Assembly: GCF_007483665.1 (NCBI RefSeq) | Contig: NZ_VIQO01000002.1 | Span: 124,001 to 188,000 of the forward strand | From: Catellatospora sichuanensis | GTDB lineage: Bacteria > Actinomycetota > Actinomycetes > Mycobacteriales > Micromonosporaceae | Reading direction: 5' to 3' | Length of the DNA stretch: 64,000 nt | Shown here: positions 53,020 to 61,415 of the stretch, one piece after another | How the letters are laid out: the number at the start of each line of letters is the position of its first letter | Position numbering within the stretch: the stretch's first letter is position 1 | Position numbers and translations under genes: made by a program | Notes under the pieces: model-generated | Database searches by the model: none | What the model was told of the DNA's origin: nothing | Seen by the model: the letters and a program-made list of their open reading frames with translations, nothing else

Positions 53020-53792
53020 CCGGGCGACGTTCCGGCGCGCTGCCGGAACGCCCCGGAGCCCCGGTGGCACCGCCGGGGCGTGGACAGACCCGTGGCGCCG
53101 CCCGGCCGGGCGAGGTGACGGGGGAGTCCGCGCCGGGCGGCGTCACGCTCACCGGCGGTGGTCCCGGGACGGTGGGCGGGGTGGTCGTGGTGACCGATCG
53201 CCGCCAGGCGGCCCGGCCGCTGTCGGACGTGGTCGCCGCGGCCGTCACCGCAGGCGCGCGGATCGTGCTGCTGCGGGAGAAGGATCTGCCGCGTGTGCAG
53301 CGACTGCGGCTGGCGGTGGCGCTGCGCGGGCTGCTGCGCCCGGTCGGCGGGCTGCTCATCGTGGCCGGTCAGGACACCCTCGACGGCGAAGCGCTGCATC
53401 TGCGCGCGGGCGCGGTCGCGCCGCTGGGGCGGCCGCGGCTGCTGGGCCGCTCATGCCACGACGGGGCGGAGCTCGACCGGCTGTCCACCGAGGACTACGT
53501 GACCCTGTCGCCGGTGTACCCGAGCCGGAGCAAGCCCGGCTACGGCCCGCCGCTGGAACCCTCCGGGCTGCGCCGCCTGGCCGCCCGCGCGGGCCGTCCG
53601 GTGCTGGCGCTGGGCGGGGTCGAGACACCCGAGCAGGCCGCGGCGTGCCGCGCCACCGGGGTCGCCGGCGTCGCGGTGATGGGCGCGGTGATGCGGGCCG
53701 CCGACCCCGCATCGGTGTACGCACGGCTGCGCGCCGCGTGGGACGGCGTGTGCGACGGATCATCCCGCGACGGCGGGAGAGTGCTGGCATGA
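53013..53792 (+). CDS. Second ThiE/TenI-family protein
   Basis: A 259-residue frame from the ATG that overlaps thiG; the first 50 residues are low-complexity, and a later GTG (reading into GGVVVVTD) may be the real start. The barrel keeps REKD and the H of LGRSCHD, as TenI-type aminothiazole tautomerases do, but lacks the NDR pair (reads AGQD), and the TxTKxD loop reads SRSKPGYGP. It is therefore unlike a canonical ThiE and may speed thiazole tautomerisation. The thiG-proximal position supports this. Confidence 0.75.
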
Positions 53793-53860
53793 GCGAGCGC
53801 CGCGAGCTGATCAGCAGACTCGGCGATGCCGCCGACGAGCGCAGCGAGGAGAAGACATGA
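53789..53860 (+). CDS. Putative 23-residue micro-ORF (SERSE-type), thi copy
   Basis: The ATG overlaps the thiE2 stop (ATGA) and the TGA overlaps the next micro-ORF (ATGA). The peptide starts MSERRELI and contains DERSE. It is homologous to the micro-ORF before nirB: 13 of 23 residues and 54 of 72 nt are identical. The end AGCGAGGAG-N5-ATG supplies a ribosome site for the next frame. Confidence 0.45.
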   Translation: MSERRELISRLGDAADERSEEKT

Positions 53861-53931
53861 GCGAACACATCGCACGAAACGGGTGCCCACACCGTCCTGC
53901 CGTCGCCGGGTGCCCCGGGGGTACGCCATGA
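53857..53931 (+). CDS. Putative 24-residue micro-ORF before thiD
   Basis: The ATG overlaps the stop of the preceding micro-ORF and the TGA overlaps the thiD ATG (both ATGA). It begins MSEHIARNG and ends CPGGTP. It contains two cysteines but no known motif. thiD itself has only a weak ribosome site, so passing translation through this frame may matter. Confidence 0.35.
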
Positions 53932-58511: not shown

Positions 58512-58858
58512 GGTCTTTCCACAGCCACTTCGACCGTGTCCCCGTTGCAGCGGATGAGGTACGTCGGCACGGCCACCCCGCTCACGTCCAGGCACTCGCC
58601 GGTACGCAGGTCGTACACCTGCTTGTGCAGCGGGGACGCGACGGTGGGGGCGTCCCCGCGGGTGCCGACGATGCCGCGCGACATCACCTGCGCGCCCGCG
58701 ATGGGGTCGCGGTTGCCGATGGCGTAGAGCTCGCCGGAGAAGGTACGGAAGATCGCGATCTGGACGCCGTCGACGAGTGCGGCGACGCCGCGTTCGGCCT
58801 CCAGCCGGGCGTACGAGCAGATCGCCGTCCAGGTGACGGTCATGGTCGCCGTGGTCAT
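58508..58858 (-). CDS. nirD: Nitrite reductase small subunit NirD
   Basis: A 116-residue Rieske-like fold protein that partners NirB. TWTAICSYARLEAERGVAAL starts the domain, and SPLHKQVYDLRTGECLD marks the end. The cysteine-histidine cluster ligands of true Rieske proteins are absent, as is usual for NirD. The ATG overlaps the nirB stop by 4 nt. Confidence 0.93.
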   Translation of the reverse strand: MTTATMTVTWTAICSYARLEAERGVAALVDGVQIAIFRTFSGELYAIGNRDPIAGAQVMSRGIVGTRGDAPTVASPLHKQVYDLRTGECLDVSGVAVPTYLIRCNGDTVEVAVERP

Positions 58859-61347
58859 CGGGCACCTCCCAGGGTTACCGGCACCGGACCACGGGCAGGG
58901 ATCTTCTGCCCGCGTTCGACCTCGAAGCTGATGTCGGGGTCGGGTGTGCCCGGCGCGTTGACGAACGAGACGAAGCGTGCGAGGCGCTGCGGGTCCTGCA
59001 GGGTGGCCTGCCACTCGTCGGCGTATGACCCGACGTGGCGGGCCATCTGCGCGTCGAGTTCCTCGCACAGTCCCAGCGCGTCGTCGACGATGACGGCGCG
59101 CAGGTGGTCGAGACCGCCCTCCATCGCCTCCAGCCAGGCGGCGGTGCGCTGCAGCCGGTCGGCGGTGCGGACGTAGTACATGAGGAACCGGTCGATGGTG
59201 CGGATCAGCTCCTCGGTGCTGACGTCGGTGAGGAACAGGTCCGCGTGCCGGGGCCGGAATCCGCCGTTGCCGGCGACGTACAGGTTCCAGCCCTTCTCGG
59301 TGGCGATGATGCCGAAGTCCTTGCTGCGCGCCTCGGCGCACTCGCGGGCGCAGCCGCTGACCGCGGACTTGAGCTTGTGCGGGGCGCGCAGGCCCCGGTA
59401 GCGCAGCTCCAGCTCGATGGCCAGGCCGACGGAGTCCTGCACGCCGTACCGGCACCAGGTCTCGCCGACACAGCTCTTCACCGTGCGCAGCGCCTTGCCG
59501 TACGCGTGTCCGGACTCGAAGCCCGCGTCCACCAGCCGGTGCCAGATCTGCGGCAGCTGCTCGACCCGCGCGCCGAACAGGTCGATGCGCTGGCCACCCG
59601 TGATCTTCGTGTAGAGCCCGAAGTCGCGGGCCACCTCGCCGATCACGATCAGCTTCTCCGGGGTGATCTCGCCGCCGGGGATGCGCGGCACCACCGAGTA
59701 GGTCCCGTCGCGCTGGATGTTGGCGAGGAAGTGGTCGTTGGTGTCCTGCAGCGCGGCTTCCTCGCCGTCGAGGATGTAGCCGTTGTTGACGGCGGCCAGG
59801 ATCGACGCGATCGCGGGCTTGCAGATGTCGCAGCCGCGGCCGGTGCCGTACCCGCCGACCAGCTCGGTGAAGGAGCGGATGTTGCGTACCCGGATGATGT
59901 CGAACAGCTCCTGGCGCGAGTACGTGAAGTGCTCGCACAGCGCCTTGGACTGCACCACCCCACCCGCGGCGAGCAGCTGCTTGAGCAGCGGAATGCACGA
60001 CCCGCAGCCGGTGCCCGCCTTGGTGCACGTCTTCAGGCCCGGCACGTCGGTGCAGCCGCCGGCGATCGCGTCCGTGACGTGGTCCTTGGTCACCGCGTGG
60101 CAGGAGCACACCTGCGCCGTGCCGGGCAGTTCGGCCTTCGCCGACCCGTCCCCGGCCGGGGCGAGCAGCGCCAGCGGCGGCGCGGGCAGCGGCCCGCCGA
60201 GCGAGGCCCGCAGCGTCGGGTACGCGCTCGCGTCGCCCACCAGGATGCCGCCGAGCAGCGTCTTCGCGTCGTCGGTGAGCAGCAGCTTGGCGTACACGCC
60301 GGTGACCTGGTCGGTGACGACCACGTCGAGCCCGTCGGCGAACGGGGCGCCGAAGCTGGCCACGTCCACCCCGAGCAGCTTCAGCTTGGTGGAGGTGTCG
60401 GGGCGGGCCATCGTCGCCTCGCCGCCGGTCAGCCGGTCGGCGACCACCTCGGCCATCGCGTAGCCGGGCGCGACCAGGCCGTAGCAGACCCCGTCGGTCT
60501 CGTCGAGGGACAGCGCCGCGCACTCGCCGATGGCCCACACGGCCGGGTCGGCGGTCGCGCACGCGGCGTCGACCACGAAGCCGCCGCGCGGGCCGCGCAC
60601 CAGCCCGGCCGGCTCGGCCAGCTCGTCGCGGGGCCGGATGCCCGCGGCGACCACGACCACGTCCACGTCCAGCGAGCCGCCGTCGTTGAACAGCATCCGG
60701 TGCACGCCGCCCGCGTCGCCCTCCAGGCCTGCGCAGCCGCGGCCGGTGTGCACGGTGACGCCCAGCGCCTCGATGTGCCGCTTCAGCACCGCGCCGCCGC
60801 CCTCGTCCACCTGCAGCGGCATCAGCCGCGGCGCGAACTCGACGACGTGCGTGGTGATGCCGAGCATCTTCAGCGCGTTCGCGGCCTCCAGGCCGAGCAG
60901 GCCGCCGCCGAGCACCGCGCCGATCCGGCGCCCGCCGGCGGTCGCCCACTCCTTCAGCGCCGCGAGGTCGTCGAGGGTGCGGTAGACGAAGACGCCGGGC
61001 AGATCGCTGCCCGCGATCGGCGGCACGAACGCCCGCGAGCCGGTGGCCAGCACCAGCGCGTCGTACGGCGTCTCGCCGGACGCACTGTGCACGACCCTGC
61101 GGTCGCGGTCGATCCCGGTGACGGCCTCGTTCAGTCGCACCGCGACCCCGTCGGGTGCCCCGCCCAGGTGCAGCGCACCGGCGTCGTAGTCGTCGAACCA
61201 GGCCGACAGCCGCACCCGGTCGTACGCCGGGCGGTCCTCCTCGGCCAGCACGGTCACCGACCAGCCGGGATCGGCCCGCTCCGCGAACGCCTCCAGGAAG
61301 CGCTGCGCCACCATGCCGTACCCGGCAACGACCAGCTTCTTCGTCAT
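58855..61347 (-). CDS. nirB: Assimilatory nitrite reductase large subunit NirB
   Basis: An 830-residue NAD(P)H nitrite reductase that makes ammonium. An N-terminal FAD/NAD domain (VVAGYGMVAQRF; VLGGGLLGLEAANALK), a BFD-like [2Fe-2S] domain (CSC at 414-416, then CTKAGTGCGSC), and a siroheme/[4Fe-4S] part with C-x5-C (CVGETWC) and C-x3-C (CAREC) are all present. The ATG overlaps the stop of the upstream micro-ORF, whose end holds the ribosome site AGCGAGGTG. Confidence 0.96.
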   Translation of the reverse strand: MTKKLVVAGYGMVAQRFLEAFAERADPGWSVTVLAEEDRPAYDRVRLSAWFDDYDAGALHLGGAPDGVAVRLNEAVTGIDRDRRVVHSASGETPYDALVLATGSRAFVPPIAGSDLPGVFVYRTLDDLAALKEWATAGGRRIGAVLGGGLLGLEAANALKMLGITTHVVEFAPRLMPLQVDEGGGAVLKRHIEALGVTVHTGRGCAGLEGDAGGVHRMLFNDGGSLDVDVVVVAAGIRPRDELAEPAGLVRGPRGGFVVDAACATADPAVWAIGECAALSLDETDGVCYGLVAPGYAMAEVVADRLTGGEATMARPDTSTKLKLLGVDVASFGAPFADGLDVVVTDQVTGVYAKLLLTDDAKTLLGGILVGDASAYPTLRASLGGPLPAPPLALLAPAGDGSAKAELPGTAQVCSCHAVTKDHVTDAIAGGCTDVPGLKTCTKAGTGCGSCIPLLKQLLAAGGVVQSKALCEHFTYSRQELFDIIRVRNIRSFTELVGGYGTGRGCDICKPAIASILAAVNNGYILDGEEAALQDTNDHFLANIQRDGTYSVVPRIPGGEITPEKLIVIGEVARDFGLYTKITGGQRIDLFGARVEQLPQIWHRLVDAGFESGHAYGKALRTVKSCVGETWCRYGVQDSVGLAIELELRYRGLRAPHKLKSAVSGCARECAEARSKDFGIIATEKGWNLYVAGNGGFRPRHADLFLTDVSTEELIRTIDRFLMYYVRTADRLQRTAAWLEAMEGGLDHLRAVIVDDALGLCEELDAQMARHVGSYADEWQATLQDPQRLARFVSFVNAPGTPDPDISFEVERGQKIPARGPVPVTLGGAR

Positions 61348-61415
61348 GCCCTCACCTCGCTGCGCTCGGCTCCGGCATTTTCCGGCCTCATGATGAGCTC
61401 ACTGCGTTCGCTCAT
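61344..61415 (-). CDS. Putative 23-residue micro-ORF (SERSE-type), nir copy
   Basis: It begins 2 nt after the FAD-subunit stop and its TGA overlaps the nirB ATG (ATGA). It starts MSERSELI and contains ERSEV. It is the same length as the thi copy at 53789, with 13 of 23 residues and 54 of 72 nt identical, although on the other strand and 7.5 kb away. The 3' end carries AGCGAGGTG-N5-ATG. Confidence 0.45.
   Translation of the reverse strand: MSERSELIMRPENAGAERSEVRA

Follow-up and report, generated by a model that had tools for sequence, protein, structure and literature searches.

The closest described systems are the MIRU repeats, which have long served to type tuberculosis strains; since 1997, they have been known chiefly as typing markers in mycobacteria. 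MIRUs insert into DTGA (where "D" is A, G, or T). The name stands for mycobacterial interspersed repetitive units and reportedly goes back to Supply et al. in 1997. The excerpted text of PMC12548453 describes MIRUs as apparently mobile, inserting at start codons and leaving an open reading frame (ORF) in −4 coupling to the gene. Units measure 46 to 101 bp at 41 M. tuberculosis H37Rv loci (PMC3914561) and are tandem at some loci, and a class I MIRU of 77 nt is named as a 5′ untranslated region (UTR) (PMC4128351). Here, we analyzed 64,000 nucleotides of Catellatospora sichuanensis DNA (contig NZ_VIQO01000002.1, positions 124,001 to 188,000; "the window"), which holds two related micro-ORFs, one between a thiE-like gene and thiD and one ahead of nirB. 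We consider it highly likely that these are copies of a MIRU-like short interspersed mobile element that preserves translational coupling through its own insertion.

Two other known systems share part of this anatomy. The enterobacterial sequences RU-1, RU-2, and RU-3 are small, mobile, and carry ORFs; they measure 103 to 168 bp and resemble miniature inverted-repeat transposable elements (Delihas 2007, PMC2759123). Like these, our element is a small mobile repeat with an open frame able to become part of a protein, and it adds N termini (at L004 and other loci, below), but it is shorter and is placed at the RTGA (where "R" is A or G) of start codons. Short ORFs that stand upstream of a gene and supply it with ribosomes, whether natural or in engineered bicistronic designs (PMC12548453), likewise overlap the gene that follows, and the element would function as they do. 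However, those are single leaders or designs, whereas this is a dispersed repeat arriving by insertion.

Copies in the window and across the genome

The preliminary description of the window had reported two frames of 24 codons, counting the stop, and reading both frames bore this out. Alignment reproduced the identity given there (13/23 residues and 54/72 nucleotides), and both frames do end in AGCGAGGWG-N5-ATGA. Their placement in two unrelated pathways agrees with the NCBIfam matches of the neighboring genes. The claim that each frame overlaps the downstream start by ATGA held for nirB but not for thiD, since the ATGA at 53857 opens a second 24-codon frame that ends in the thiD-start ATGA at 53928. 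From its sequence, this second frame is probably a decayed copy of the element, and a lone decayed stretch resembling it is present in the congener G503. At the thi locus, there is overlap at both ends of the element. At the nir locus, 2 nt separate the upstream stop from the element ATG (TGA-TC-ATGA), and the overlap is at the 3′ junction only.

A count of two copies proved far too low. In the window's genome (9.45 Mb), the 5′ pattern ATGAGCGARCGNNGNGAG had 34 matches and the 3′ pattern GARCGNAGYGAGGWGNNNNCRTGA had 86 exact matches, with none for either on reversed DNA, so that the genome holds at least 86 exact 3′ halves. We fetched the regions around all 86 of these; units missing the exact pattern go uncounted. 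The 86 units form 69 arrays, 11 of them tandem (two with 4 units, two with 3, and seven with 2) and the remainder single. Each element is bounded by RTGA on both sides, and direct repeats of GAGCGNAGCGAG lie near both of its ends.

A profile was made from 71 units of this genome, both window copies included. Beyond those two and the decayed copy, its best further match in the window had an E value of 0.77, and the reversed window gave 1.7 at best. The bare 12-mer GAGCGNAGCGAG with up to 1 mismatch was not enriched within the window (3 versus 5.2 expected); it was the whole unit that was enriched instead. This result for the 12-mer, together with a purine-rich stretch in the 3′ half of the sort common before starts, is what one would cite for chance similarity or a low-complexity leader common to many genes. 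Set against the lack of reversed matches in the genome and family searches (one appeared among 396 phylum-sample genomes) and the existence of full-length copies, tandem arrays, and empty sites, we believe this explanation can practically be dismissed.

The arrays sit at a particular kind of place. Coding was judged mechanically, by an open frame of 60 codons or more and a high GC content at third positions, and the controls were 2,734 further RTGA sites from the same DNA. The upstream stop fell exactly in the 5′ DTGA in 41/69 arrays versus 106/2,734 controls, and a coding frame started exactly at the last RTGA in 66/69 versus 1,179/2,734. Both ends were exact in 38/69 arrays but in only 36/2,734 controls (Fisher 3e-46).

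The length of the unit is constrained as well. Among the 71 of 86 units with a recognized 5′ end, the distance from RTGA to RTGA was 26, 62, 65, 68, 71, 74, or 80 bp in 69 units and 69 or 70 bp in two. It was 68, 71, or 74 bp in 61/71 and between 62 and 80 bp in 70/71, the remaining unit having 26 bp. Of 68 distinct units, 66 have a length of 2 mod 3, which puts a start in the first RTGA and a stop in the second into one frame, and none of these 66 has an inner stop. The encoded peptide has conserved ends, MSERSER..DERSEEKA* (the asterisk marking the stop), and is variable in its middle and in its length.

Mini forms of about 26 bp occur at L012, L013, L186, L291, L309, and L315. Each has one GAGCGNAGCGAG-like repeat and runs from RTGA to RTGA in frame. 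In sequence, they resemble remnants of recombination between the two GAGCGNAGCGAG repeats of the element.

These frames raise two further explanations. The first is that the frames encode functional micropeptides of one family, each working together with its operon's enzymes; the preliminary description had offered a small-peptide family as its alternative. The conserved ends, the 66 distinct in-frame units without an inner stop, and some synonymous excess in codons 2 to 10 (figures below) fit that idea. It is disfavored by the variable middle and length, by copies that come and go among congeners, with close relatives lacking them in the corresponding operon, and by the unrelated pathways of the window copies, which show no stable tie to one pathway. 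Moreover, the 5′ half is in a different frame in one genus (g2, below), and fusion to the N terminus of the next protein is seen for some copies. We therefore regard a micropeptide family as very unlikely. The second is a cis-regulatory RNA or DNA element, such as an attenuator or a protein-binding or processing site, in which the open frame is incidental. The element does stand ahead of operon genes, and an excerpt of PMC4128351 places 17/24 typing MIRU loci of M. bovis in 5′ UTRs and links copy number to the promoter activity of neighboring genes. However, none of five sequences folded clearly better than shuffles (z, −0.66 to 1.68), and length changes by whole codons, as seen in 66/68 distinct units, would not be required of an element acting purely as RNA or DNA. 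This reading, too, strikes us as quite improbable.

Empty sites, doubled targets, and insertion

Six junctions were compared among the 11 genomes of the genus, one of which (G000) is that of the window. All six were polymorphic for the presence of the element, and at all six, the sites without it had a single RTGA. The nir junction was filled in G000, G481, G512, and G465 and empty in 6 genomes, with G503 counted as unclear because its upstream flank differs. Here, the two states can be read directly, as TGATC-ATGA-CGAAG in G445 versus TGATC-ATGA-[element]-ATGA-CGAAG in G465. The thi junction had one or two copies in G000, G481, G523, and G512, only decayed copies in G494 and G503, and none in 5 genomes. 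At the opcA-pgl junction, copies were found in G000, G481 (two), G523 (two), and G494, along with a degenerate fused copy in G512 and 6 empty sites. Tandem copy number therefore varies among congeners at the thi and pgl junctions. The zwf-opcA junction had a full copy in G000, partial copies in G481 and G527, and none recognized in 8 genomes, among them a close empty site in G503. (The names zwf, opcA, and pgl are readings of the sequences, not results of a family search.) Of two junctions on contig C17, the first was filled in 4 genomes and empty in 5, with no clear call for 2/11, and the second was filled or held a remnant in G000, G494, G523, G503, and G512 and was empty in 6.

The truncated zwf-opcA copy of G527 (L226) runs into an unrelated palindrome, AAAGTCCGCGAAGCGGACTTT. 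It looks as if a second small element had landed inside the copy.

The two C17 junctions have GTGA as their target. At the first, where the empty site reads GTGA, the filled copies of G000, G481, and G494 are flanked by GTGA at either end, and that of G512 reads ATGA...GTGA. At the second, flanking by two GTGA was seen in G523 and G503, while G000, G494, and G512 had ATGA...GTGA. In total, 5/9 filled copies at GTGA targets (3/4 and 2/5) had GTGA on both sides. Over 58 arrays, the first bases of the 5′ and 3′ RTGA were A/A in 43, A/G in 5, G/A in 5, and G/G in 5 (Fisher P = 0.009). This pattern fits target duplication followed by later change in some copies; some copies may also bring their own ATGA.

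Our model for the element is as follows. It inserts at an RTGA that forms part of a start codon, most commonly one that also holds the stop of the preceding gene, and RTGA then stands on both sides. The insert is an open mini-cistron whose second RTGA is directly preceded by a purine-rich stretch, internal to the element, that resembles a Shine-Dalgarno sequence. After finishing the upstream gene, ribosomes would restart on the mini-ORF, read some 20 to 27 codons, terminate in the second RTGA, and begin again on the downstream gene, every step using the −4 overlap of ordinary coupling. Because of this reinitiation, insertion would be nearly neutral for translation of the operon. Movement would depend on a putative machinery that recognizes RTGA. 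The earlier suggestion of a dispersed element inserting as a translational coupler stands as far as anatomy is concerned (86 3′ halves, RTGA targets, empty sites, and a kept frame).

Several points weigh against an element of this kind. Translation of the mini-ORF, coupling, and present movement are inferences. In 28/69 arrays, the upstream stop is not exactly in the 5′ DTGA, although some of these may sit at starts that lack an overlapping gene. The criterion of a coding start at the 3′ RTGA is weakly selective (66/69 versus 1,179/2,734), the search did not recognize the 5′ end of 15/86 units, and the counts are not independent events because the copies are related by descent. With regard to doubling, 4/9 filled copies at GTGA targets read ATGA...GTGA, and 10/58 arrays have unlike first bases in the two RTGA. 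Finally, in codons 2 to 10, 30/129 single changes were synonymous versus 18.2 expected at random (reached in 1/5,000 trials), but third positions did not vary most (positions 1, 2, and 3 had 47, 46, and 36 changes). The same test on the last nine codons (31 versus 18.1) was discarded, since the search pattern itself allowed mainly synonymous variation there.

Some copies adjoin or enter proteins. At L004 (G000:C1:416125), a copy without the 3′ stop forms the first codons of a ketosynthase-like protein (a label read from the sequence), MSERSERIRRTGHAADGRGEEKA-ADAPVVTGLGVV..., and so provides a new N terminus. At L002 (G000:C1:290460) and L010 (G000:C2:249979), the proteins adjoining copies begin with MSERSER or MSERSEA, as if these starts had been taken over from the 5′ end of the element.

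Other lineages and the mycobacterial repeats

The element is not confined to one species. In the family, order, phylum, and g3 samples used here, genome counts are whole, and matches are those listed first for each genome. A lack of further copies in relatives would have refuted the preliminary description; the 3′ pattern was found in 121/250 genomes of the family, in 23/44 genera, with no match on the reversed control. Within the genus, the 11 genomes had from 0 (two genomes) to 92 exact 3′ matches. In the order sample, the pattern occurred in 54/298 genomes (the window's family, 43/54; f86, 5/5; f89, 5/50; f2, 1), and in the phylum sample, it occurred in 3/396, with one reversed-control match (G080).

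Size differs by lineage: units are mostly 68 to 74 bp in the window's genus (g1) and mostly 80 bp in genus g2 and family f86. The g2 units, of the type MSERQRANHQRSAENAQVDAERSEVAA*, are similar to the g1 DNA at a score reached by 0/2,000 shuffles. They have one extra base in the 5′ half, which shifts the frame there. From 24 matches in 20 fetched regions, we obtained 16 distinct g2 units with ends recognized by a second pattern; 16/16 were open, and 14 were 80 bp long. Some g2 matches have another 5′ form, e.g., L296, which lacks the extra base. Family f86 yielded five open copies of 80 bp in four genomes, together with two in-frame copies of 26 and 68 bp in G827. A further genome of the window's family, G569, has two open copies of 80 bp. 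An in-frame DTGA (74 bp) was present in one of four fetched f89 matches, and the f2 match belongs to the 26-bp forms. Since g2 units stay open despite the frame shift in their 5′ half, openness and not the peptide seems to be kept. Across lineages, as far as these sequences indicate, openness and the length rule seem to hold while the peptide changes.

At L311 to L314 in f89, related 3′ halves stand ahead of GTG starts with a different, GCGAGCTTGCGAG-like 5′ part. This is perhaps another family of like kind.

The element resembles MIRUs in layout. The element is short (62 to 80 bp in 70/71 units) and dispersed over 69 arrays, is tandem at some loci (11/69 arrays), has an ORF in −4 overlap with the neighboring gene (anatomy only; both ends exact in 38/69 arrays), and is inserted at start codons, with a single RTGA at element-free junctions. 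It differs in that its sequence is distinct save for a shared GAGCGNAGCGA block in the 3′ half, in that its units are 68 to 80 bp and occur in other bacterial families, and in that the frame is kept in 66/68 distinct units versus 15/24 distinct mycobacterial units (from a rough cut of 28, with ends chosen mechanically). The preliminary description had known of no account of such an element. For this sequence outside mycobacteria, nothing relevant was among the literature matches listed, but the kind itself has a precedent in MIRUs as an excerpt of PMC12548453 presents them.

The element could also be a true mycobacterial MIRU by descent, whether from an ancestor of the order or by lateral transfer, which would be compatible with the MIRU-like mobile element we favor. 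A literature search on the letters of the mycobacterial repeat yielded a single paper, which contains a repetitive-element PCR primer from M. intracellulare. MIRU sequences were obtained with a MIRU core motif. This motif occurred in 70/148 genomes of the mycobacteria-like genus g3, often at a spacing of 52 to 54 bp, and in 2/150 of the window's family. Units in g3 read like M..GDDAERSDEEERR. A 77-bp MIRU sequence had no match in viral contigs and matched one contig, as two tandem units directly 3′ of a SenX3-like gene. We take this gene to be SenX3; NCBIfam made it a phosphate-type sensor kinase, below the cutoff. The MIRU beside it reads M..DDDAERSDE.. and has the motif GAGCGNAGCGA in common with the element.

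The contig in question (L155, JAHREJ010000087.1) is deposited under the name Bacillus subtilis SK7B5. It encodes a phosphoglycerate mutase that matches PDB 1rii, presumably the M. tuberculosis enzyme, at each of 249 residues. Judging from this sequence, L155 is probably contaminant DNA of the M. tuberculosis complex that carries the MIRU place at senX3.

Besides the same layout, DTGA ends, tandem habit, and shared motif, two comparisons speak for descent. Only 9/2,000 shuffles reached the score of the g2 consensus against the 77-bp MIRU, and element and mycobacterial profiles had 55 versus 2 and 96 versus 4 matches compared with reversed DNA at E values up to 10. However, the other three shuffle comparisons were weak (54, 189, and 723/2,000), and no reciprocal profile match fell below 1e-3 (best, 0.01 and 0.0024). 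The profile matches are also favored because the motif used to select the mycobacterial loci matches the element in part. Moreover, the two distributions are nearly exclusive, with the MIRU core in g3 and the exact 3′ half of the element in the window's family and in 0/34 g3 genomes of the order sample. We consider descent from MIRUs possible but doubtful. Since the equivocal similarity is limited to the 3′ half and the distributions hardly overlap, we believe that the element works like a MIRU but should not be filed as one.

A broader proposal would be a class of mobile elements that target start codons beyond mycobacteria. Within the order, its lineage-specific families would be bounded by RTGA (doubled where this was tested, in g1), have a length that keeps translation running, and leave the peptide free to change, even by frame shift. 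They would spread under the cover of translational coupling, sometimes provide new N termini, and be moved by a putative RTGA-recognizing machinery. We think this proposal could equally well prove right or wrong. Sequence-distinct families that behave like MIRUs in other Actinomycetota would make hiding inside translational coupling testable in soil bacteria, and the present element offers sites that are cleanly empty, a target that is doubled in most cases, and lengths that strictly keep to whole codons. Mini-ORFs and element-derived N termini can also distort start calls and catalogs of small proteins, and polymorphic tandem copies could serve as strain markers.

Features of the window and a second repeat

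The copies and their neighboring genes are listed below. Scores of the neighboring genes are NCBIfam bit scores.

Table 1. Element copies and adjoining genes in the window.
Feature	Position	Strand	Evidence or remark
Element copy 1, micro-ORF	53789..53860	+	From the ATGA holding the thiE stop to the next ATGA; profile match, E 1.9e-15
Probable decayed tandem second copy	53857..53931	+	Weak profile match, E 0.004, over 53857-53908
Element copy 2, micro-ORF MSERSELIMRPENAGAERSEVRA*	61344..61415	-	Ends in the ATGA of the nirB start; profile match, E 1.2e-13
Conserved 3′ half of copy 1, purine-rich putative ribosome-binding stretch GAGCGCAGCGAGGAGAAGAC-ATGA	53837..53860	+	1 of 86 genome matches
Conserved 3′ half of copy 2, GAGCGCAGCGAGGTGAGGGC-ATGA	61344..61367	-	1 of 86 genome matches
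thiE-like gene upstream of copy 1, stop inside its 5′ ATGA	53013..53792	+	TIGR00693, 67.7 bits, below cutoff 145.1
thiD (HMP/HMP-P kinase), downstream gene	53928..54716	+	TIGR00097, 279.6 bits, above cutoff 204.95
NirB-like flavoprotein matching the N-terminal part of NirB, upstream gene	61418..62908	-	TIGR02374 positions 2-468 of 794, 382.8 bits, below cutoff 578.35
nirB (nitrite reductase large subunit), downstream gene	58855..61347	-	TIGR02374, 981.9 bits, above cutoff 578.35

A scan of the window against Rfam at the gathering score returned three tRNAs and a thiamine pyrophosphate riboswitch, with no known family over the micro-ORFs. The riboswitch lies ahead of the thi operon at 50891-51003 (RF00059, 65.4 bits) and is ordinary.

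A second dispersed repeat was seen on contig C17 of the window's genome (G000:C17, L251, about 3994-4094). It is a near-palindrome of about 80 bp, GGCCTATCTCATCGAGTT...AACTCGATGAGATAGGCC, with many matches across the genus, including in G519 and G410, both of which have no match to the 3′ pattern of the element.

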